Positions 3,121-40,945 of a stretch of DNA of 64,000 bases are shown in pieces; the first letter of the stretch is position 1; every line of letters begins with the position of its first letter. Source of the DNA: Flavobacterium bernardetii (GTDB taxonomy: Bacteria > Bacteroidota > Bacteroidia > Flavobacteriales > Flavobacteriaceae); assembly GCF_011305415.1 (NCBI RefSeq), contig NZ_JAANOQ010000003.1, forward strand, positions 1 through 64,000. The letters run 5' to 3'. Made by a program: the position numbers and the translations under genes. The notes below the pieces were generated by a model. It was given only the letters and a program-made list of their open reading frames with translations, was not told the DNA's origin and searched no databases.

Positions 3121-3933
3121 TTTAATAGGATTTTTTACAAAGCTATACAGAAAAAATCATACCAAAGTGTAACGAAAAGTGAAATTTTAGTTAAAAAAGT
3201 TTGGAGTCAGAAGTAGGAAGCTGGAAGTCAGAAGAATAAAATTGAAGTTTTAGTTTTCGAATTTCAGCAATGTTGAAAACTTAAATGACTTATGAGTTTA
3301 AATTTTGTTAACCCGTTGGGTGTAATTAGTTTCTGATAAGAATTTTTCGTCAGTTCGAGTGATTTTTGTCAAAAAATCGTATCGAGAACAAGAAAAATTT
3401 CATTAAAAACTATTCTCGATACATTTTTTGTTTCGTTTTACTGCACAAAAAACACTCGAATTGACGTTTTTTTTAATTAGATCCAACGGGTTTTATTAAT
3501 GTGTTTTAGATAGCTTGTCCCGTTTTTTCGGGAGGTGCCCGAAGGGTGGGGTGTCAAATAACTTGACTTTTTTAGGACTTTTCGTTGAATCTTATTAATC
3601 TCTCAAGTTTTTTCTTTTTCTGAAAAATCTATGTTCTCTCTTTTAAGCGAAGCGACTTTTTTTTTACATAAAAACCTATGTGCCTATGTGTTTCAAATTA
3701 AATCTGTGTTCCTATTTCAATTTAACCCACCAAAATAAAAATTTTATAAATTAATATAATTTCTCCAATCTGTGTTTTTAATATCCAGAATCAAAATTAA
3801 AATTATCAGTTAAATCCGTGTTCCTATTTCAATTTAACACCAAAATAAAAATTTTATAAATTAATATAATTTCTCCAATCTGTGTTCCAACTATCCAGAA
3901 TCAAAATTAAAATTATCAGTTAAATCTGTGTTC
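3121..3933. other. Repeat-rich intergenic gap without genes
   Basis: About 810 bases with no credible gene. It contains, in order: the words GGAAGCTGGAAGTCAGAAG (about 3216-3234), a 183-bp dispersed palindromic element (3310-3492), a hairpin word GTCCCGTTTTTTCGGGAGG (about 3513-3531), AAACCTATGTGCCTATGTGTTT (about 3671-3692, whose reverse complement is nearly repeated after prfH near 34118-34139), and a 110-bp tandem duplication that runs into the end of the glycosyltransferase gene. Confidence 0.75.
3310..3492. repeat. Dispersed palindromic element, copy 1
   Basis: Begins AACCCGTTGGGTGTAATTAG and ends with the inverted form CCAACGGGTT. Inside are inverted pairs GTCAGTTCGAGTG / CACTCGAATTGAC and TATCGAGAA / TTCTCGATA, so the whole element can fold as one long imperfect hairpin. 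A second, inverted copy lies at 16207-16388 with close identity except at one end. No coding capacity. It resembles a MITE or an intergenic palindromic repeat; the family name is unknown to me. Confidence 0.85.
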
Positions 3934-31868: not shown

Positions 31869-31888
31869 ATAAAACAACATATATGAAA

Positions 31889-31922
31889 AAGCCCGAAGAC
31901 ATTTAGTTTCGGGCTTTTTTTT
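31889..31922 (+). terminator. Terminator-like hairpin upstream of rtcB
   Basis: Stem AAAAGCCCGAA / TTTCGGGCTTTT with a GACATTTAG-type loop and a run of eight Ts, about 280 nt after lpxD and 120 nt before rtcB. It may end an lpxD-side transcript or act as an attenuator. Confidence 0.75.
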
Positions 31923-32040: not shown

Positions 32041-33432
32041 ATGGGAAATAAACTCTCTGGGAAAGACTTAATTAAATTAGGCTTCCCAAAAAATAATGCC
32101 ATAAACATTGCTTTAGGGCAAATAAATAGATATCGAAAAAGAGAAAAAAAGGAAAGTATTTTAACCGAAGCGAAACAAGTATTGCTACATCCAGAAAAAT
32201 ATAAAGGAGACGGTACTTGGGGAAAAGTCGCGGAAGGTTTAGTGAATCCAGTTCAAGTAAAATTCAACGAATTGAAAACGACTCGAGCTCCTTTTTCCAT
32301 CTTTGGAGAAAACGAAATTGACGAACAAGCTAAGTTTCAATTGTATGACGCTTTAAAATTACCAATTTCAGTAAAAGGCGCTTTAATGCCCGATGCACAT
32401 TACGGTTATGGATTGCCAATTGGCGGTGTTTTAGCTACAGATAATGCGGTTATTCCCTACGGAGTTGGAGTAGATATTGGTTGCAGAATGAGCTTATCGA
32501 TTTTCGATTTGCCAGCGTCTTTTTTCAAAGGAAAAGACCATCAATTGCAAGCGATTTTGAAAGACAATACCAAATTTGGGATGAGTGAAACGCATAAAAT
32601 AAAAGCCGATCACGAAGTGTTTTACAGAGACGAATTTAAAACGATTCCATTGGTAAAACAGTTGTTAGACAAAGCCTACAAACAATTAGGTTCCTCTGGT
32701 GGAGGAAATCATTTTGTGGAATTCGGAATTGTGAAATTAGACAATCCGTTACCGGAATGGAAGTTGGAAGCTAAAGAATACGTAGCGGTTTTATCACACA
32801 GTGGTTCCCGCGGATTGGGTGCGAATATTGCCAAACATTACACGTATTTGGCAAGCAAACAATGTCCGTTACCCAAAAATGTACAGCATTTAGCTTGGTT
32901 GGATTTGAATACACATGACGGTCAAGAATATTGGATGGCTATGAATTTAGCGGGTGAGTATGCCAAAGCTTGTCATGAAGACATTCACAGAAGATTGGCT
33001 AAAGCCTTAGGAAAACGTATTGCGGTAACTATTGAAAACCATCACAATTTTGCTTGGAAAGAAATGGTTGATGGCAAAGAATGTATTGTGCATCGAAAAG
33101 GAGCAACGCCAGCAGCTAAAGGACAATTGGGAATTATTCCCGGTTCGATGACGGCGCCAGGATTTATTGTGATGGGTAAAGGAAACGAAGACAGTTTACA
33201 ATCGGCTTCACATGGAGCTGGACGATTGTTTTCAAGAGCGAAATGCAAAACCACTTTTACTCAAAGTCAGATTAATAAAGTGTTGAAAGATAACGACGTG
33301 ACTTTAATCGGCGGCAATATTGACGAAGCACCGATGGCGTATAAAAACATCAATACGGTGATGAATTTGCAAACCGAATTAGTAGATGTGTTAGGAACTT
33401 TCACACCGAAAATTGTTAGAATGGACCGATAA
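32041..33432 (+). CDS. rtcB: RNA 3'-phosphate ligase RtcB
   Basis: 463 residues from the ATG of MGNKLSGKDLI. An in-frame stretch reaches back to 31921, but that falls in a terminator hairpin and lacks family features. Motifs: MPDAHYGYGLPIGGVLA, GVDIGCRM (metal-binding Cys), SSGGGNHFVEFG, LSHSGSRGLG, NHHNFAWKE, and the guanylylated His in SASHGAGRLFSR (His391). RtcB seals 2',3'-cyclic phosphate or 3'-phosphate to 5'-OH RNA ends with GTP and Mn. The next gene is prfH, one nt away; this pairing marks the RtcB2 type that repairs ribosomes damaged at the decoding centre. Neither the RtcA cyclase nor the RtcR regulator is seen. Confidence 0.95.
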   Translation: MGNKLSGKDLIKLGFPKNNAINIALGQINRYRKREKKESILTEAKQVLLHPEKYKGDGTWGKVAEGLVNPVQVKFNELKTTRAPFSIFGENEIDEQAKFQLYDALKLPISVKGALMPDAHYGYGLPIGGVLATDNAVIPYGVGVDIGCRMSLSIFDLPASFFKGKDHQLQAILKDNTKFGMSETHKIKADHEVFYRDEFKTIPLVKQLLDKAYKQLGSSGGGNHFVEFGIVKLDNPLPEWKLEAKEYVAVLSHSGSRGLGANIAKHYTYLASKQCPLPKNVQHLAWLDLNTHDGQEYWMAMNLAGEYAKACHEDIHRRLAKALGKRIAVTIENHHNFAWKEMVDGKECIVHRKGATPAAKGQLGIIPGSMTAPGFIVMGKGNEDSLQSASHGAGRLFSRAKCKTTFTQSQINKVLKDNDVTLIGGNIDEAPMAYKNINTVMNLQTELVDVLGTFTPKIVRMDR

Positions 33433-33433
33433 G

Positions 33434-34126
33434 ATGGAAAAGATAATTCAAATTACATCGGGTAGAGGACCTGCAGAATGTACTTGGGTGGTGGCTCAAG
33501 TCTTGAAAAAAGTGTTGCAAGAAGCAGAAGCTTTAGGTTTAGTAACGACTGTCTTGCAACGCGAAGTAGGATCTGAAAATGGAACTGTCGCTTCGGCAAT
33601 GGTCCAAATTATTGGAAAAGATGCTACTGAATTTACGGATTCATGGGTTGGAACCATTCAATGGATTGGGAAAAGTACGTTTAGAAAATTTCACAAACGC
33701 AGTAATTGGTTTATTGGGATTTTCGAAGTAGATGCGATTGAATCTCGTGCTTTTTCTGAAAAAGACATTCAGTATCAAGCGATGCGAAGTTCTGGAGCTG
33801 GTGGACAACACGTAAATAAAGTGAGTTCGGCCATTCGGGCGACACATTTGCCAACTGGAATTAGTGTGGTGAGTATGGATTCGCGTTCGCAACATCAGAA
33901 TAAGAAATTGGCGACCGAGCGTTTGCTAGTGAAGCTAAACGAAGCCCAATTGAATCTTTTGAAACAACAATTTCAAAGTCAGTGGACCAATCAATTAGCA
34001 GTGGAACGTGGGAATCCGATTCGAACTTTTGAAGGTTCCGATTTTAAGAAACTCAAAGTAGAAAAGAAATTTAAAGCTGTACGACAGCAATTAAAAAACG
34101 AATTAAATAAATTTAAAAACACATAG
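33434..34126 (+). CDS. prfH: Peptide chain release factor H
   Basis: 230 residues from ATG 33434 (MEKIIQITSGRGPAECTW), one nt after the rtcB stop. It carries the peptidyl-hydrolysis loop GAGGQHVNK (GGQ at 123-125) and the following SAIRATHLPTGISV and HQNKKLATERL, but lacks the N-terminal domain and the stop-codon reading motifs of RF1/RF2, as expected for RF-H. Published work on RtcB2-PrfH pairs shows PrfH releases the peptide from ribosomes whose 16S rRNA is cut in the decoding centre so that RtcB can religate it. Basic C-terminal tail (KKLKVEKKFKAVRQQL). Confidence 0.95.
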   Translation: MEKIIQITSGRGPAECTWVVAQVLKKVLQEAEALGLVTTVLQREVGSENGTVASAMVQIIGKDATEFTDSWVGTIQWIGKSTFRKFHKRSNWFIGIFEVDAIESRAFSEKDIQYQAMRSSGAGGQHVNKVSSAIRATHLPTGISVVSMDSRSQHQNKKLATERLLVKLNEAQLNLLKQQFQSQWTNQLAVERGNPIRTFEGSDFKKLKVEKKFKAVRQQLKNELNKFKNT

Positions 34127-34274
34127 GCACATAGGTTTAAATCTTAAAACTATCTGAAAATAAGAAAGCAGATTTAACTGATTTTTGCTGATTTTGGATG
34201 GTTTGATATGCTTCGCATATTCTGATTTACACGGATTAAAAACTGTGTGTAATTAAATTTAAAAAACAAATATC
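34127..34274. repeat. Word-repeat spacer between prfH and the TPR gene
   Basis: About 148 bases with no gene. It starts ACACATAGGCACATAGGTTT, nearly the reverse complement of the word near 3671-3692. It also carries TTTAACTGATTTTTGCTGATTT and CTGATTTACACGGATTAA, phrases that look like recurrent intergenic words. Confidence 0.5.
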
Positions 34275-34823
34275 ATGAAAAACATAGATAAATACTTATT
34301 TCAAGCCTTGGATAATTATCCGTATTGGTTGGAAGGAACTTCGGAAGCTTTGGATTACGCCTTGTCTTACGATGCGAAAAACACAACCGCTTTGTGTTTG
34401 TATGCCCGAATAGAAGCAGAGCAATTGCAAAACTATGAAGCAGCAAAAACGTATTTTCAAGAAGCTTTGGCGATTAATATGGATGCCGTAGCGGTATATC
34501 CGTATTATTTGGAAACCTTGCTTTTGAATGAAGATTACGAAGAAGCTGCCAAGTTAATTGACTTCGCCTTAACTATTAAAGGTATTAACAAAATGGCAAT
34601 TTTATTAAAAAAAGTACACTTATTAGAACGCCAACAAGATATTAAAGGCGCAATAAAATTAATGAAAGAAGTAAAATTAGCTTCTTTTGCTAACGACACG
34701 TACGAAATCGACGAAGTAGCCAACAGGTTAAATACCAAAAAGGATTTACTTAAGCCAAAGAAAAAATCAAAGAAAAAGAAAACCGAGAAAAAGAAATCGG
34801 AGAAAAAAGGCAAGAAGAAATAA
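34275..34823 (+). CDS. TPR-like protein with lysine-rich tail
   Basis: 182 residues. Helical TPR-like repeats occupy about 1-150 (AKNTTALCLYARIEAEQLQN, YEAAKTYFQEALAIN, VYPYYLETLLLNEDYEEAAKLI). A strongly basic tail follows from about 155 (LLKPKKKSKKKKTEKKKSEKK). It lies 148 nt after prfH on the same strand and is followed by a terminator, so it may belong to the rtcB-prfH unit. A basic tail on a TPR scaffold fits binding to rRNA or ribosomes, but this is inference. I know no assigned function for it. Confidence 0.82.
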   Translation: MKNIDKYLFQALDNYPYWLEGTSEALDYALSYDAKNTTALCLYARIEAEQLQNYEAAKTYFQEALAINMDAVAVYPYYLETLLLNEDYEEAAKLIDFALTIKGINKMAILLKKVHLLERQQDIKGAIKLMKEVKLASFANDTYEIDEVANRLNTKKDLLKPKKKSKKKKTEKKKSEKKGKKK

Positions 34824-34824
34824 G

Positions 34825-34850
34825 AAAACCAGCTTTAGGGCTGGTTTTTT
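34825..34850 (+). terminator. Terminator after the TPR gene
   Basis: Stem AAAACCAGC / GCTGGTTTT with a TTTAGG-type loop and Ts, starting 2 nt after the stop codon. It closes the rtcB-prfH-TPR stretch. Confidence 0.85.
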
Positions 34851-34970
34851 GTATTGTTATATTTTTGATACTTTTAGTTTTATGACTAAAAATTAGCGTT
34901 TCAAAGCATCTTTATGCATAGCAATTTATCAATTCGTTACATTTGATAGAAAGCTTAAAATAAACTACCA

Positions 34971-35885
34971 ATGGCAACCAATCAATTACTAGTTTCTTTT
35001 AGAAATAGGGCATTAGGCGATAAAAAAGAAACTCAAACAACAACCAGTTGGACAGAAGAAATAGAATATTTATATAAAAGCGGCGTGGGAATTGATGAAG
35101 CGTTGAAGTATTTGTATTTTGAAAAACCATCTGTAGAAGCTTTTGAGAGTTGGGTGAACCAAAAACAAACTTTTTTTGTGCCATCCGTTGCACAAGAAGC
35201 CTTAGTTTTTAGTGAGGAAGAGTTGCAGTTTTTTAAAACCAATGGTTATGTTGTGTTACCTAATGCCATTCCAAAAACGGATTGTTTGGCGACACAACAG
35301 ATTATTTGGGAATTTTTAGAAATGCATCCAGATCAATCGGACACTTGGTATAAAAATCATCCTGAACAACGCGGAATGATGCTTAATTTTTTTGATCACC
35401 CTTTATTAGAAAAGAACAGAGCTTCGAGTAAAATAAGAAAAGCTTTTGAGCAATTGTATCAGTCGGAAAATATTTATAAAACGATAGATAAAGTGAGTTT
35501 TAATCCGCCTATTACTCCAAATTATTCTTTCAAAGGAAGTGATTTACATTGGGATGTGAGCTTACAATTGCCCATTCCATTTCGATTACAAGGATTGATT
35601 TACTTATCAGATTGTGGACTAAAAGATGGCGCGTTTCATTGTGTACCGGGTTTTCATAATCAAATTACTGCATGGATGCAACAAGTTCCTGAAGGTGTGC
35701 ATCCAAGAGCTCATGCTTTAGAAACATTAGTACCTCAAGCGATTAAGGCTTATGCTGGCGATATGGTAATTTGGCAACAAGCCTTACCACATTGCGCGAC
35801 TCCAAATTACGGCACTTCACCAAGAATGGTGCAATATTTAAGTTATATCAGTGAAACGTACGAAGAAGCTAAAGTGTGGATTTGA
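34971..35885 (+). CDS. Phytanoyl-CoA dioxygenase family protein
   Basis: 304 residues, an Fe(II)/2-oxoglutarate oxygenase of the PhyH type. A helical region comes first (about 1-80), then FFKTNGYVVLPNAIPK. The metal triad is HWD (in GSDLHWDVSL) and the distal His in LPHCATPN; the 2-oxoglutarate Arg is in SPRMVQYLS. Substrate unknown. It follows the repair unit but is separated by a terminator, so it probably has its own promoter. The region from here to 38.7 kb lacks core genes. Confidence 0.87.
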   Translation: MATNQLLVSFRNRALGDKKETQTTTSWTEEIEYLYKSGVGIDEALKYLYFEKPSVEAFESWVNQKQTFFVPSVAQEALVFSEEELQFFKTNGYVVLPNAIPKTDCLATQQIIWEFLEMHPDQSDTWYKNHPEQRGMMLNFFDHPLLEKNRASSKIRKAFEQLYQSENIYKTIDKVSFNPPITPNYSFKGSDLHWDVSLQLPIPFRLQGLIYLSDCGLKDGAFHCVPGFHNQITAWMQQVPEGVHPRAHALETLVPQAIKAYAGDMVIWQQALPHCATPNYGTSPRMVQYLSYISETYEEAKVWI

Positions 35886-36257
35886 GTTGGAGAAGTTAAA
35901 ATAGGTTATAATGTCTTTTTGTCAGATGTGTCATTTTTTTTGTAAGAATATGACAGACGAAATACAAGCAATATCGTTGAAATACATACTGACTGTCAAT
36001 ATGATAAATATTTTATTTGTGATATATTTTGTAGTGTATTTTGGCACAATTTGTGCAATAAAAGAAAAGAGTCCAAGAATTGGCGTTCGGTGGACTCTTA
36101 TTGATTTTATTTCTAAAAACGACCTCAAAAGCAAGGATGAGGTTGTTTTTCTTTGAAGGTGCAAAAGTATTCTATTTTTTCTTTCCTACAAACTTTTTTC
36201 TGGTTTTCTTCTCGGAACATAGCGCCGAATGCTATATAATTAAATTTTATTAAAAGA
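35886..36257. other. Leader region upstream of the CBASS operon
   Basis: 372 bases. A perfect 13-bp palindrome GCACAATTTGTGC (36044-36056) lies inside TTGGCACAATTTGTGCAA, which also matches a sigma-54 -24/-12 promoter with one mismatch. Two tandem hairpins follow: AAGAGTCCA/TGGACTCTT (36067-36099) and AAAACGACCTCA/TGAGGTTGTTTT (36116-36149), the second with a T-rich tail. A weak ATAGC/GCTAT inverted pair lies near 36219-36236. The first part may simply terminate the PhyH gene. Confidence 0.5.
36116..36154 (+). terminator. Terminator-like hairpin before the CBASS operon
   Basis: Twelve-base stem AAAACGACCTCA / TGAGGTTGTTTT with one G-T pair, then TTTCTTT. It is the second of two adjacent hairpins; either a terminator of upstream transcription or an attenuator. 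Confidence 0.65.
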
Positions 36258-36488
36258 ATGGAAAGTTTTCATTTAGTCCATGAGGATGGTAAGTACAAAT
36301 TAAAAAGAGAAGATGCTGAAAGAGCATCGAAAGTAATTGATTCTAATAAGCAAGACGCTATTAAACAATCAAAAGAATTTATTCAAAATCAAGGAGGTGG
36401 TTCTTTGAAAATTCACAAAAATGAAGGTGGATTTCAAGAAGAGAGAACTTACCCTAAGTCTAATGACCCGAGAAAAAGTAAAGGATAA
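36258..36488 (+). CDS. DUF2188-like small protein, first gene of the CBASS operon
   Basis: 76 residues, soluble, resembling the DUF2188 family: an N-terminal HLVHEDGKYKLKREDAERAS strand-turn-helix, DAIKQSKEFIQNQGGGSLKIH, and the ending GFQEERTYPKSNDPRKSKG (the ERTYP..xDP signature). DUF2188 proteins are small and uncharacterised. Its stop codon is one nt before the Cap15 start, so it is translationally coupled to the effector. No such component is standard in CBASS; it could be an inhibitor, a chaperone for the membrane effector, or a passenger. Confidence 0.82.
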   Translation: MESFHLVHEDGKYKLKREDAERASKVIDSNKQDAIKQSKEFIQNQGGGSLKIHKNEGGFQEERTYPKSNDPRKSKG

Positions 36489-36489
36489 T

Positions 36490-37107
36490 ATGGAAAAAGA
36501 TTATTTTAAATATTATAAGCCTAATTTTTTAATTTATTTAATTGTTGGCTTATTTGTTCTAATTTATAGTATAAAGAAAGAATTTGTTTTATCTATTTCA
36601 ATCACTAGTCTTCTGTCTGTAATAATATTTTTTATTACTCAATATTTTTGGAAGTATTCACCTTTTAAATATTTTTTTTGGATTGAAGATTTTTCTGGAA
36701 GATATGAAGGAAAAATAATCTATCAATATAATGATGAAAATGGAAATTTAAAAATAGGTGTATTAAATCATGTTAAAATAATAAGCCAAAGTGGTTCAAG
36801 AATTACTGTGTATTCTTTTACTATTAAGTCTGATGGTAAAAAATCTTCACTTTCTGTAAATAAAGGAATGTATGTTGAAAAAACTGAAGATGAAAAACAT
36901 TTTAGATTGATTTATAATTATTTAAATGAAGGTAGTCTTGAACAAGATTTTTCTCCACATTATGGAACTGAGATTATAAAGATAATAAAAAAAGGGGATG
37001 ATAAAATTATTGAGGGAAACTATTATACTGATAGAAAACCTTTTCAAACCAAAGGTAGGTTTGAAGAAATGAAATGGATTAGTAATGATGATAATCACGA
37101 ATTTTAA
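36490..37107 (+). CDS. cap15: Cap15-like CBASS effector (two membrane helices plus beta-barrel)
   Basis: 205 residues from ATG 36490 (MEKDYFKYYKPN), one nt after the preceding stop. An earlier in-frame ATG at 36421 lies inside the DUF2188-like gene and is unlikely. Two membrane helices (about 13-29 FLIYLIVGLFVLIYSI and 33-52 VLSISITSLLSVIIFFI) are followed by a beta-rich domain starting FSGRYEGKIIYQY and ending EGNYYTDRKPFQTKGRFEEM. This matches the 2TM plus beta-barrel effector Cap15, which binds a cyclic nucleotide through the barrel and then disrupts the inner membrane. The adjacent CD-NTase supports it. Assigned from architecture and context. Confidence 0.85.
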   Translation: MEKDYFKYYKPNFLIYLIVGLFVLIYSIKKEFVLSISITSLLSVIIFFITQYFWKYSPFKYFFWIEDFSGRYEGKIIYQYNDENGNLKIGVLNHVKIISQSGSRITVYSFTIKSDGKKSSLSVNKGMYVEKTEDEKHFRLIYNYLNEGSLEQDFSPHYGTEIIKIIKKGDDKIIEGNYYTDRKPFQTKGRFEEMKWISNDDNHEF

Positions 37108-37118
37108 AAAATAAAAAA

Positions 37119-38120
37119 ATGGCAACTTTAAATAAAGAATTTATAGAATTTGATAAAGAAATTAAGCTTAATGAAAATAAGAAGCTTGATTTAAAAACGA
37201 GTAAAAAAAATATAAGGAAAAATATTCAAAAATGGTTTAATGAAAATAAACCTAATGAAATACAACCAAAATTTCATGGACAGGGTTCTTTTGAAATGAA
37301 TACTGGAAATAATCCGATAATCGAATATGATAATGAAGGAAACAAAATTTATAAATATGATTTAGATTATGGAGTTTATTTTATTGAAAAAGAAGGAGAG
37401 GATAATAAAAAAAATATAGACACATGGCATGATTGGGTATATCAATCTGTTGAAAATTATACCAGTCAAAAGTCTATTCGTAAAAATACTTGTATTAGGG
37501 TTATATTTGCTGATGGTCACCATATCGATTTGCCTATCTATTATAAATTAGGAGATGTTATAGAAATTGCACATCGTTCTAAAGGATGGTGTTTGAGTGA
37601 TCCAAAATTGTTTTATGAATGGTTTAACGATGAAAAAAAGAAAAAAAACAGATTAGAATCTATTGTAAGATGTTTGAAGGCATGGAAGAACTTTAGAGAT
37701 TTGAATAATACAAATTTAAAATTACCTAGTGGTTTTGAGTTAACCATTTTAGCTACTAACAACTATGTTGATAAGGATAATTTGGATGATTCTTTTAGAG
37801 AAACAGTTAGAGCAATTTTAGTTGAATTAATGAGAAAATTCGAATGTTTAAGACCTACTACACCTAAAGCAGAAAATGTTTTTGAGTCTTATTCTCAAAC
37901 TAGGAAAAATGATTTTTTAAATGTTTTAGAGAGTTTGTTAAGTGACTGTGATAGAGCAAAGGAAGAAAAAAATTATAAAAAAGCTACTGAGAGACTTAGA
38001 GATTTTCAATTTGGATATAGATTTCCGTTTGGTAATGATGAAGATGAGGAAACGCAAAGTAATAAATTGTATAGTGCTTTGGGAAGTTCAATGATAACTC
38101 CGAAACCTTATGGGTATTGA
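37119..38120 (+). CDS. CD-NTase (cGAS/DncV-like nucleotidyltransferase) of CBASS
   Basis: 333 residues. Nucleotidyltransferase core: GQGSFEMNTGN (Gly56-Ser57), the metal-binding YDLDYGVYF (Asp81, Asp83), and the third acid in HHIDLPIYY (Asp137). An alpha-helical half follows (SIVRCLKAWKNFRDLNN, FELTILATNNYV). On phage infection such enzymes make a cyclic di- or trinucleotide that activates the effector, here the Cap15-like protein. The product cannot be read from sequence. The chain ends KPYGY: a Gly-Tyr end rather than the bare C-terminal Gly expected for E2-linked conjugation. The last 11 nt overlap the E2-like gene. Confidence 0.9.
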   Translation: MATLNKEFIEFDKEIKLNENKKLDLKTSKKNIRKNIQKWFNENKPNEIQPKFHGQGSFEMNTGNNPIIEYDNEGNKIYKYDLDYGVYFIEKEGEDNKKNIDTWHDWVYQSVENYTSQKSIRKNTCIRVIFADGHHIDLPIYYKLGDVIEIAHRSKGWCLSDPKLFYEWFNDEKKKKNRLESIVRCLKAWKNFRDLNNTNLKLPSGFELTILATNNYVDKDNLDDSFRETVRAILVELMRKFECLRPTTPKAENVFESYSQTRKNDFLNVLESLLSDCDRAKEEKNYKKATERLRDFQFGYRFPFGNDEDEETQSNKLYSALGSSMITPKPYGY

Positions 38121-38742
38121 AAATCAAGTAAAAGAAGTTTTAAACTTATTTAAAGATTTAGTTTTTTTTGAAGAAGAAAAAAAAATTGGTGGAAAAATTT
38201 ATGTATTAAATGACGATTATTATGAAATTGAAATACAAATTCAAGATTTCCCTAGTTCATTTCCAATAGTTAAAGAAACTTTAACAAGAATACCTGTAAA
38301 AGCTGATAGACATGTTTATATTGATACTGGAAGTTTATGTTTTACTACAAAAGCGATTGCAGATATTTTATTAAAGAGTAAAATAAAAACTTTAAAAGAC
38401 TTTATTGTTAATGTTTTAATCCCTTATTTGAGGAATAATTCTTATTATGAAATACATGGCAAATATTTTGAAAATGAATATTCGCATGGTGTATTAGGTA
38501 TTATAGAATCTTATAAGGATATATTAAAGATTAATGGAGAATATAGTATTGCAAAAATAATGTTAGATAGAATTGAAAATCGTAATATTAAATTTAAAGA
38601 CAATTGTTATTGTGGTTCTAATTTTACTTTAAAAAAATGTTCTAACGGAAAACATGATAAAGCGTATAGGGAATTTAAATTTATCAATAAAGAAACTTTG
38701 ACAAGGGATTTAATGCAAATGATTGAATTTTTAAAAAAGTAA
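38110..38742 (+). CDS. E2-like CBASS accessory protein with C-terminal zinc motif
   Basis: 210 residues, overlapping the CD-NTase end by 11 nt. The N-terminal half looks like a prokaryotic E2: YEIEIQIQDFPSSFPIVKET, then RHVYIDTGSLCFTT with the candidate catalytic Cys77. The C-terminal half has a SEC-C-like zinc motif NCYCGSNFTLKKCSNGKH (Cys166, Cys168, Cys177, His182). No E1 or JAB-like partner (Cap3) is present, so this is the short type II CBASS layout, in which a lone E2 conjugates or primes the CD-NTase. E2 assignment is from the G-x-LC motif and context, not from a search. Confidence 0.82.
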   Translation: MGIENQVKEVLNLFKDLVFFEEEKKIGGKIYVLNDDYYEIEIQIQDFPSSFPIVKETLTRIPVKADRHVYIDTGSLCFTTKAIADILLKSKIKTLKDFIVNVLIPYLRNNSYYEIHGKYFENEYSHGVLGIIESYKDILKINGEYSIAKIMLDRIENRNIKFKDNCYCGSNFTLKKCSNGKHDKAYREFKFINKETLTRDLMQMIEFLKK

Positions 38743-38745
38743 ATA

Positions 38746-38776
38746 AAAACACCAACATTTCTGTTGGTGTTTTTTA
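38746..38776 (+). terminator. Terminator of the CBASS operon
   Basis: Stem AACACCAACA / TGTTGGTGTT with a TTTC loop followed by Ts, 4 nt after the E2-like stop codon. Confidence 0.85.
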
Positions 38777-38785
38777 TTTATAATG

Positions 38786-38812
38786 AGATGCTGAAACGAG
38801 TTCAGCATGACA
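38786..38812. repeat. Dispersed palindromic word (GATGCTGAA...TTCAGCAT)
   Basis: Inverted pair ATGCTGAA / TTCAGCAT with ACGAG between. A 23-of-27 match in the opposite orientation lies inside the radical SAM gene at 58269-58295. Confidence 0.75.
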
Positions 38813-38821
38813 ATTCATTGT

Positions 38822-40945
38822 TTAATCCTCAATCAATACCTCTAAAATACTAATAGCTGCTTCACTAATTTTGGTTCCAGGACCAAAAACGGCAACGGCT
38901 CCGGCGTCAAATAAATATTGGTAATCTTGTGCTGGGATTACTCCACCTACTATTACCATAATGTCTTCACGGCCGTATTTTTTTAGTTCTTCAATTACTT
39001 GTGGTACTAAGGTTTTGTGTCCTGCTGCTAATGAGGAAACACCTAAAATATGAACGTCATTTTCCACGGCTTGTTTCGCCGCTTCGGCAGGAGTTTGAAA
39101 TAAGGGACCAATATCCACATCAAAACCTACATCGGCATAACCTGTGGCCACCACTTTTGCACCACGGTCGTGTCCGTCTTGACCCATTTTAGCAATCATA
39201 ATCCTTGGTCTTCTACCTTCTTTTTTGGCGAAGTCGTTGGCTAATTGTTTGGCTTTTTCAAAACTCGAATCGTTTTTTATCGCTTGACTATACACACCAC
39301 TTATCGATTTAATTTGAGCTTTATGTCGTCCAAAAACTACCTCTAAAGCATCACTAATTTCCCCTAAAGTTACTCTATTTCTCGCAGCTTCAACTGCTAA
39401 AGCTAATAAATTTCCGTTTCCGGTTTTTGCACATTCAGTAAGTGCTTCTATACTTTTCTTAGCTTTTTCAGTATCACGATTAGCTTTTATTTCTTCTAAT
39501 CGTGCTACTTGTTGCTTGCGCACCATATCGTTATCCACATCTAAAATGTGTAACGGATCTTCTTTATCTAAACGGTATTTGTTGACACCTACAATAATAT
39601 CTTGCGTGCTATCAATACGCGCTTGCTTACGCGCAGCCGCTTCTTCAATACGCAATTTCGGAATTCCAGCTTCAATAGCTTTTGTCATTCCGCCTAAAGC
39701 TTCCACTTCTTCAATTAATGCCCAAGCTTTTTCTGTAATTTCAGCGGTTAAACTTTCTACATAATAACTTCCTGCCCATGGATCCACCGTTTTGCAAATT
39801 TTGGTTTCTTCTTGTAAAAAGATTTGTGTATTACGCGCAATTCGTGCTGAGAAATCTGTTGGTAAAGCAATGGCTTCATCCAAAGCATTGGTATGTAAAG
39901 ATTGTGTTCCTCCAAATGCAGCAGCGGCAGCTTCAATTGCTGTACGAGCTACGTTATTGAACGGATCTTGTTCGGTTAGACTCCAACCAGAAGTTTGGCA
40001 ATGTGTTCTTAAAGCTAATGATTTTTCGTCTTTTGGATTGAATTGTTTTAACAATTTCGCCCAAAGCATACGACCGGCACGCATTTTGGCAATTTCCATA
40101 AAATGGTTCATTCCAATCGCCCAAAAGAAAGATAGGCGAGGTGCGAATTCATCAATTTTCATACCTGTAGATAATCCTGTTCTGATGTATTCTAAACCAT
40201 CGGCAAGTGTGTAGGCTAATTCAATATCGGCCGTGGCACCTGCTTCTTGCATGTGATATCCTGAAATGGAAATCGAGTTGAATTTAGGCATATTATTACT
40301 AGTATATTCGAAAATATCTGCAATAATTTGCATAGAAGGTGTTGGTGGATAAATGTAGGTATTTCTCACCATGAATTCCTTCAAAATATCGTTTTGTATG
40401 GTTCCTGATAATAGGTTAGGAGCCACGCCTTGTTCTTCTGCAGCTACGATGTAGAATGCCATAATTGGTAAAACTGCTCCGTTCATAGTCATCGAAACCG
40501 ACATTTCATCAAGTGGAATTTGGTCGAAAAGAATTTTCATATCTTCCACAGAATCAATAGCCACTCCAGCTTTTCCAACATCACCTTGCACACGAATATG
40601 ATCTGAATCGTAACCACGGTGTGTAGCTAAATCGAATGCTACAGATAAACCTTTTTGTCCGGCTGCTAAATTTCTTCTGTAGAAAGCATTACTTTCTTCC
40701 GCAGTTGAAAATCCAGCATATTGACGAACTGTCCAAGGTCGGCGCACGTACATTGTAGCGTATGGTCCTCGTAAATTTGGTGCAAAACCAGCTCCAAAAC
40801 CAAGATGCTCTAAATCAGAAATATCTTCTTTAGTGTATGTTGGTTTTATGTCAATTTTTTCCGCAGTTTCAAAAGAGCTAGTAGCTGTCACTTCCAGCTT
40901 CTGACTTCCAGCTTCTAACTTAATATGTTGTATGTTTTTTCTCAT
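38822..40945 (-). CDS. mutB: Methylmalonyl-CoA mutase, large (catalytic) subunit
   Basis: 707 residues. The N-terminal TIM-barrel substrate domain carries [22 protein letters not shown] (split across the known RPWTIRQYAGF motif), [21 protein letters not shown] and the helical linker. The C-terminal cobalamin domain has [12 protein letters not shown] with the lower-ligand His592, then [12 protein letters not shown] and VIVGGVIP. It isomerises (R)-methylmalonyl-CoA to succinyl-CoA. Residues about 9-20 ([12 protein letters not shown]) are encoded by an intergenic repeat word and are not family-like, so the N-terminal extension seems acquired. A mutA gene lies upstream, separated by a T9SS gene. 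Confidence 0.95.

Follow-up and report, generated by a model that had tools for sequence, protein, structure and literature searches.

We describe a three-gene unit of Flavobacterium bernardetii in which rtcB, encoding an RNA ligase, and prfH, encoding peptide chain release factor H (PrfH), are followed by a gene for a tetratricopeptide repeat (TPR) protein with a lysine-rich tail. The unit occupies positions 32041-34823 of a 64,000-nucleotide stretch (positions 1-64,000 of contig NZ_JAANOQ010000003.1) that serves as the reference and is referred to here as the window. The linkage of the TPR gene to rtcB-prfH is real, and we favour, with moderate confidence, the interpretation that the three genes constitute one rescue and repair unit for ribosomes with cut ribosomal RNA (rRNA), the TPR protein being a non-catalytic adaptor dedicated to this class of RtcB. 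RtcB-type ligases show little sequence preference, yet one of them would have to locate a single broken bond in a ribosome; a conserved partner that tracks one RtcB class, sometimes without the release factor, is a specific candidate for such targeting. The three-gene association is already in print and the trio of the window is a further example of it; added here are a TPR clade with a signature and a tail, an RtcB-TPR form that lacks PrfH, and a tendency towards extended PrfH proteins beside the TPR gene.

In the window, rtcB, prfH and the TPR gene share the + strand and are flanked by two terminator-like hairpins on that strand. The first (31885-31920; a 14-pair stem followed by a T-run) ends the preceding unit, 5' of rtcB. 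The ligase gene (32041-33432; 463 residues) runs from an ATG at 32041 to a TAA at 33430-33432, and prfH (33434-34126; 230 residues) begins with an ATG at 33434, confirming a spacing of one base reported by an earlier, sequence-only reading of this DNA. The TPR gene (34275-34823; 182 residues) ends, as that reading also stated, at a terminator-like hairpin (34823-34850; a 12-pair stem and then a T-run), which closes the unit. Of the 11 terminator-like sites listed over a 4.7-kb region (2.7 expected), none separates prfH from the TPR gene, and no + strand sigma-70-like site is listed 5' of rtcB or in the prfH-TPR gap, in a scan that covered the sigma-70 type only and yielded no more sites than shuffled sequence. 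The three genes may be co-transcribed. The gap of 148 bp between prfH and the TPR gene (34127-34274, + strand), which the earlier reading did not give, is local to the window, because prfH and the TPR gene overlap at 45 of the 80 loci compared in relatives. Within the gap is a short, dispersed CACATAGG-type repeat that recurs elsewhere in the window and the genome. A related observation concerns ACACATAGGCACATAGG, present as exact 17-base copies at 34119-34135 and 3675-3691 in opposite orientation (0.03 expected, with up to three mismatches allowed) and in additional partial copies in the genome.

The first two products are readily assigned. The window's RtcB scores 278.3 bits against Pfam PF01139 (cut-off 27), and its Cys/His positions are kept: C148, N223-H224, H253, H334/H335 and H391 are conserved in all 11 aligned rows and were also aligned to 1uc2. 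We take the roles of these Cys, Asn and His positions as an active-site set from P. horikoshii RtcB. By NCBIfam cut-offs the protein is a Bacteroidota-type ligase distinct from E. coli-type RtcB2, scoring 141.4 bits against TIGR03073 (cut-off 271.8) and 172.5 against PRK09588 (cut-off 407); the likeness to RtcB2-PrfH operons that had been proposed from the sequence thus extends to gene adjacency but not to the type of ligase. The window's PrfH scores 235.8 bits against TIGR03072 (cut-off 166.65), and the GGQ peptidyl-hydrolase motif (GAGGQHVNK) is present both in the translation and in the alignment to Protein Data Bank (PDB) entries. The protein carries a basic C-terminal extension of approximately 30 residues. 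Its nearest solved relatives, 9mor and 7sa4, are both named PrfH; the PrfH of 9mor/9mq4 (231 residues) is the closest and its alignment, spanning residues 2-225, takes in most of the extension, whereas that of 7sa4 (204 residues), which we take to be from E. coli, stops before it.

The third protein does not reach any Pfam TPR cut-off, with four TPR-type models matching weakly (best 23.9 against 27 bits). Its AlphaFold model, with a mean predicted local distance difference test (pLDDT) score of 85.4, predicts with good confidence a TPR superhelix built from ten helices; helix ten (164-179) lies within a low-confidence stretch corresponding to the lysine-rich C-terminal tail, which begins at approximately residue 160; a DNYPY signature is found near the N-terminus. 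The best VIA-align match of the model is a consensus TPR (Z 18.2, 2.3 Å over 153 residues).

The evidence for linkage comes primarily from a survey of 199 Flavobacterium genomes, in which we searched for TPR genes (by protein and by profile), for prfH (by protein) and for rtcB (by profile) and then compared the positions of the matches, genes being considered linked if they lay within 6 kb on one contig, on either strand. RtcB matches at an E-value of 1e-120 or better comprise two classes, class A with 72 loci in 71 genomes and class B with 60 loci. At the class-A loci both PrfH and TPR genes are found in 59 cases (including G149, where PrfH is in two pieces under the cut-off), a TPR gene alone in six, PrfH alone in five and neither in two; at the 60 class-B loci neither PrfH nor TPR is found nearby. 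Conversely, 65 of the 67 strong TPR matches lie near a class-A RtcB, the remaining two being a fragment in G066 and, in G107, an orphan that is intact; a genome-level Fisher test, which ignores shared ancestry, gives p 2e-41. Ten weaker TPR matches (E 9.6e-18 to 2.9e-9) were excluded from the 67; the four whose surroundings were read correspond to a paralog that neighbours recN-like and fabV-like genes. The interpretation of the sequence-only reading is thereby supported in part: within the genus the TPR gene is a conserved third member, although the condition that the reading itself set for refutation, a lack of conservation with rtcB-prfH, could have been fulfilled. Its further idea, that the TPR protein could bring damaged 30S subunits to RtcB, stands as a hypothesis.

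Gene order was examined in a second sample of 80 named loci, the best 80 of 174 TPR matches and hence biased to close relatives; all 80 show RtcB, PrfH and TPR in this order on one strand. Wherever the TPR start falls within prfH (45 loci), the overlap amounts to 4, 14 or 17 bases. The first flanking genes of these loci form 17 clusters on the left and 15 on the right, with one pair common to 46 loci and roughly two dozen pairs among the others; because the gene next to the unit differs wherever cargo has been inserted, which inflates the number of combinations, we claim only that the unit occupies several distinct sites. Beyond the genus, we analyzed a class-level sample of 325 genomes from 168 genera, including five unit-bearing Flavobacterium. 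PrfH is found above the cut-off in 24 of these genomes, with a TPR gene directly downstream in 13; in a further genome (G299) PrfH and TPR lie on two contig ends, and their linkage is likely only. The PrfH-associated RtcB proteins of this sample fall into two clades of the RtcB tree, and TPR genes are found in both.

By sequence the linked TPR proteins form one clade, nearly all with a YPY-type signature and most with a lysine-rich tail. Defining the signature as Y-[PS]-[YFW] within the first 40 residues and scoring 138 distinct TPR proteins by their neighbours within 5 kb, we find it in 98 of 99 proteins with both RtcB and PrfH nearby, in all five with only PrfH, in six of ten with only RtcB and in four of 24 with neither, these four being G107, G236, the contig-end case of G299 and the G066 fragment, which matches by chance. 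A tree of 37 tips separates the linked proteins, together with a few unlinked signature bearers, from the rest with a support of 0.91. The lysine-rich tail reported for the window's protein proves to be a family trait: over the 25 C-terminal residues the median fraction of lysine is 0.52 in linked proteins (n=103) and 0.46 in those of PrfH-less loci (n=6), against 0.12 in unlinked paralogs (n=20). Since the tail is absent from three linked proteins (L090, L091 and L093), as well as from a truncated frame (L242), we regard it as a trait of the lineage and not as a defining or universal feature. One paralog, an unlinked Flavobacterium protein of approximately 173 residues encoded between recN-like and fabV-like genes, resembles the window's TPR protein in size and, weakly, in sequence, but differs in having neither the YPY signature nor the lysine tail and in lying away from RtcB at the four loci examined. 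TPR proteins beside RtcB in L118/L120 and L140 were considered as possible PrfH-less members and rejected, because they group with generic unlinked TPR proteins, both in the tree and when scored with a profile from which they had been left out, and they carry no signature; the TPR protein near RtcB in L117 is likewise generic in appearance and devoid of the signature. A search of a plasmid collection returned no TPR match at E 1e-5.

Six Flavobacterium genomes (G024, G033, G085, G118, G130 and G191; loci L072-L077) bear most directly on the partner of the TPR protein. In each, RtcB is followed by TPR on the same strand, and no PrfH over the cut-off is found anywhere in the genome. The RtcB proteins are 56-66% identical to that of the window, the one in G130 being broken, and the five placed in the tree branch inside the class-A clade (clade support 1.0). 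The six TPR proteins are 26-34% identical to the window's (one direct pair aligns at 32% over 152 residues, E 8e-21), and all possess the signature and retain the lysine-rich tail. Because these proteins are members of profile A1, their E-values against it are circular; they were therefore re-scored with a profile whose sole members were those of the window, L187 and L191, obtaining 55.9-87.5 bits as compared to at most 39.9 for unlinked TPR proteins without the signature. These loci are most simply read as cases in which the TPR gene stayed with RtcB after a loss of PrfH, or in which PrfH had never joined, and since six genomes keep a tailed TPR protein after RtcB with no PrfH, sequence evidence makes RtcB the more likely partner.

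A PcfJ-like gene lies upstream on the same strand at all six PrfH-less loci; both products tested match PF14284, and the copy in G085 contains a stop. These loci, the tail and signature they share with the linked family, and the absence of TPR genes near the paralogous RtcB suggest a broader role independent of PrfH. The TPR family would in that case supply the targeting subunit of one RtcB class, its lysine-rich tail being directed to rRNA, and would work with PrfH in most genomes and with the PcfJ-like protein in the six Flavobacterium (PcfJ-RtcB-TPR); we put this forward tentatively, as a possibility that we rate somewhat below probable. The PcfJ link is weak, because a class-A RtcB is missing from five of the 11 genomes with PcfJ. 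For the same reason a PcfJ-like protein was rejected as an obligate partner, and no RtcB or TPR gene of this kind was found in the stretches read around PcfJ in those five genomes. Two further observations were made on PcfJ: a calcineurin-like phosphoesterase gene lies near it in five of the six PrfH-less loci, and the two genes are also found a few kb apart in L266-L268, with no RtcB or TPR.

One of the closest known systems is that of E. coli, where RtcB2-PrfH guards against colicin E3: when a cut in the decoding centre stalls a ribosome, PrfH helps to release it and the rRNA is re-sealed by RtcB2, according to the parts of PMC9223846 covered here. The two genes are adjacent there as in the window, and the 7sa4 PrfH aligns along its length; the window's RtcB is longer and of a different type, and those parts of the article make no mention of a TPR protein. 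By homology to E. coli, PrfH would free the nascent peptide from the ribosome stalled by the cut and RtcB would re-ligate the 2',3'-cyclic-phosphate and 5'-OH ends. The TPR superhelix would grip a partner, most likely RtcB but possibly the basic C-terminal extension of PrfH, and the lysine-rich tail would bind rRNA or the ribosome, holding the ligase at the damaged subunit and thereby favouring repair.

An alternative assignment is that the TPR protein serves PrfH, its groove binding the extension of some 30 residues and aiding engagement of the ribosome or hand-over to RtcB. PrfH proteins adjoining a TPR gene usually continue for about 30 residues beyond the conserved RGNP motif, and most of those without a TPR gene stop shortly after it. 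We counted extensions of at least 20 residues in 37 hand-picked PrfH proteins (36 of 128 distinct sequences plus the window's) with hand-set TPR labels, finding them in 20 of the 22 proteins labelled as having TPR and in 3 of the 15 others (Fisher 2e-5, on rows that are not phylogenetically independent). Locus L153 was counted as TPR-bearing through contig-end inference, and one of the two exceptions with TPR, L113, is a miss of the pattern, its PrfH tail actually being long. A nested Flavobacterium lineage (L068-L071) has neither TPR nor extension, which also favours this alternative. The correlation nonetheless derives from few independent events and is broken by L154 (TPR present, PrfH tail short), G175 (TPR lost, tail retained) and L124/L128 (a tail of 24-26 residues, no TPR), and six genomes retain a lysine-tailed TPR protein beside RtcB with no PrfH over the cut-off. 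The tendency of extension and TPR to co-occur, on two or three independent events, is thus suggestive only, and docking of the PrfH tail on the TPR protein is a fair prediction from the same two or three events; that the TPR protein should exist principally to serve PrfH strikes us as rather unlikely. Separately, the L068-L071 proteins are about 75% identical to the window's RtcB and only about 52% to its PrfH; in this TPR-less lineage PrfH is short and may have been replaced or have evolved fast. PrfH relatives (37-41% identity) are also encoded in four phage-labelled records (MT838156.1, OR850930.1, MT837562.1 and MT835701.1), of which three are below 7 kb and one is of 21 kb; contamination by host DNA is possible.

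The TPR protein could instead act in stress or assembly generally, its gene merely travelling along with a mobile cassette for RNA repair, and play no direct part in what RtcB and PrfH do. Two orphan TPR proteins bear the signature, and accessory genes vary among these operons (NTase-like, Zn-ribbon-like, charged-protein and PhyH genes). An indifferent passenger is hard to reconcile, however, with the association of 65 of 67 TPR genes with one RtcB class against none at 60 loci of the paralogous class, or with a linkage that persists across differing flanks and with reading frames that overlap in 45 of 80 loci, and we consider this explanation improbable.

Several results weigh against a dedicated adaptor function. 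The TPR gene is dispensable: five of the 72 class-A loci have PrfH and no TPR and two have neither, and in the class sample no such TPR gene is near PrfH in ten of the 24 PrfH-bearing genomes; in two of these ten (G307 and G472) contig ends lie close to PrfH, but there is no TPR match at 1e-8 genome-wide. Outside the genus, then, the TPR gene is optional. The structural matches of the TPR model are to generic TPR proteins only, and TPR folds bind partners of every kind. One protein with both RtcB and PrfH nearby lacks the signature (L154), two bear it with no RtcB nearby (G107 and G236), and the linked proteins without a lysine tail in L090, L091 and L093 fall outside the family.

In the published account of the association, Burroughs and Aravind (2019; PMC6514570, section 8 and Fig. 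4G-I) describe a TPR gene accreting to RFH(PrfH)-RtcB operons, proposing as a prediction, by analogy with eukaryotic Rqc1, that its product acts as a scaffold. The gene kinds are the same three as in the window, where the TPR gene likewise lies in a conserved neighbourhood. The statement of the sequence-only reading that the TPR protein has no known role consequently holds at the level of experiment only, since a scaffold role had been predicted in that work. Section 8 and the other passages of the article covered here contain no counts, lysine tail, signature or TPR-RtcB pair without PrfH, and neither a TPR gene beside RtcB without PrfH nor a test of the TPR protein appears in the parts covered here of PMC6514570, PMC1586002, PMC9223846, PMC12606134, PMC10434189 and PMC11090510. 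The same article also lists, in the part covered, a nucleotidyltransferase (NTase), a Zn-ribbon/charged-helix protein and another charged protein at RFH-RtcB loci. Relatives have genes that fit these descriptions, the likeness being one of description and not of sequence: NTase-like genes in L112, L113, L115 and L116 (the one tested gave only a weak match to Pfam), and genes for a charged, Cys-rich protein in L067 and L179.

Downstream of the unit in the window lie a PhyH-like gene (34971-35885, + strand), absent from the account of the sequence-only reading, encoding a 2-oxoglutarate/Fe dioxygenase and located between the TPR gene and a cyclic oligonucleotide-based antiphage signalling system (CBASS), and then the CBASS cassette itself (36258-38742, + strand), outside the unit and made up of DUF2188/PDC-S16, Cap15-type two-transmembrane effector, CD-NTase and E2-like genes. 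The CD-NTase scores 211.4 bits against the cGAS model NF041078 (cut-off 150) and Cap15 35.2 bits against PF18153 (cut-off 31.2), with an E2-type partner also present; the DUF2188 gene that heads the cassette (36258-36488) matches the PADLOC candidate family PDC-S16. The CBASS call of the sequence-only reading is therefore sound, but the operon is a local feature: no match to Cap15, CD-NTase or E2 occurs at the 80 named loci, which reach up to 6 kb past the TPR gene. That the trio is an anti-phage defence unit acting with the neighbouring CBASS is very unlikely, for although the cassette lies 1.4 kb downstream and two relatives carry other defence-type cassettes at this junction, its genes are missing from all 80 relatives' loci, a terminator-like hairpin and the PhyH gene separate it from the TPR gene, and no PADLOC model matches RtcB, PrfH or TPR (an absence only).

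We regard the CBASS as cargo of this locus, inserted at a small hot spot for defence genes. The interval that runs from the unit to a methylmalonyl-CoA mutase gene, which holds CBASS in the window (34850-38822), contains a restriction-type AAA_5/m5C-methyltransferase cassette in F. terrigena (L186, 6604-11919); a GHKL-ATPase/m5C-methyltransferase cassette lies past the unit in F. succinicans (L187, 7657-12426), whose locus ends before the mutase, and no defence-type cassette is found between unit and mutase in L188, L191 and L193. The PhyH gene is a loosely linked neighbour, present in six of 15 hand-picked genomes that include known cases (adjoining the unit in five of the six) and in four of the 80 named loci; we considered it as a fixed fourth member and rejected it on these counts as optional at best. 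The longest PhyH-like open reading frame of L223 begins right after the TPR stop, and in G032 the PhyH-like gene is located elsewhere.

A charged-protein family is encoded just 5' of rtcB or prfH in L172 (9548-10294), L223 (2107-2907), L158, L160, L170 and L171, and the two members tested (L067, 7152-7547, and L172) gave no Pfam match. At two class-B loci, L127 and L132, RtcB is followed by a similar gene of 265-269 residues, presumably TatD-like.

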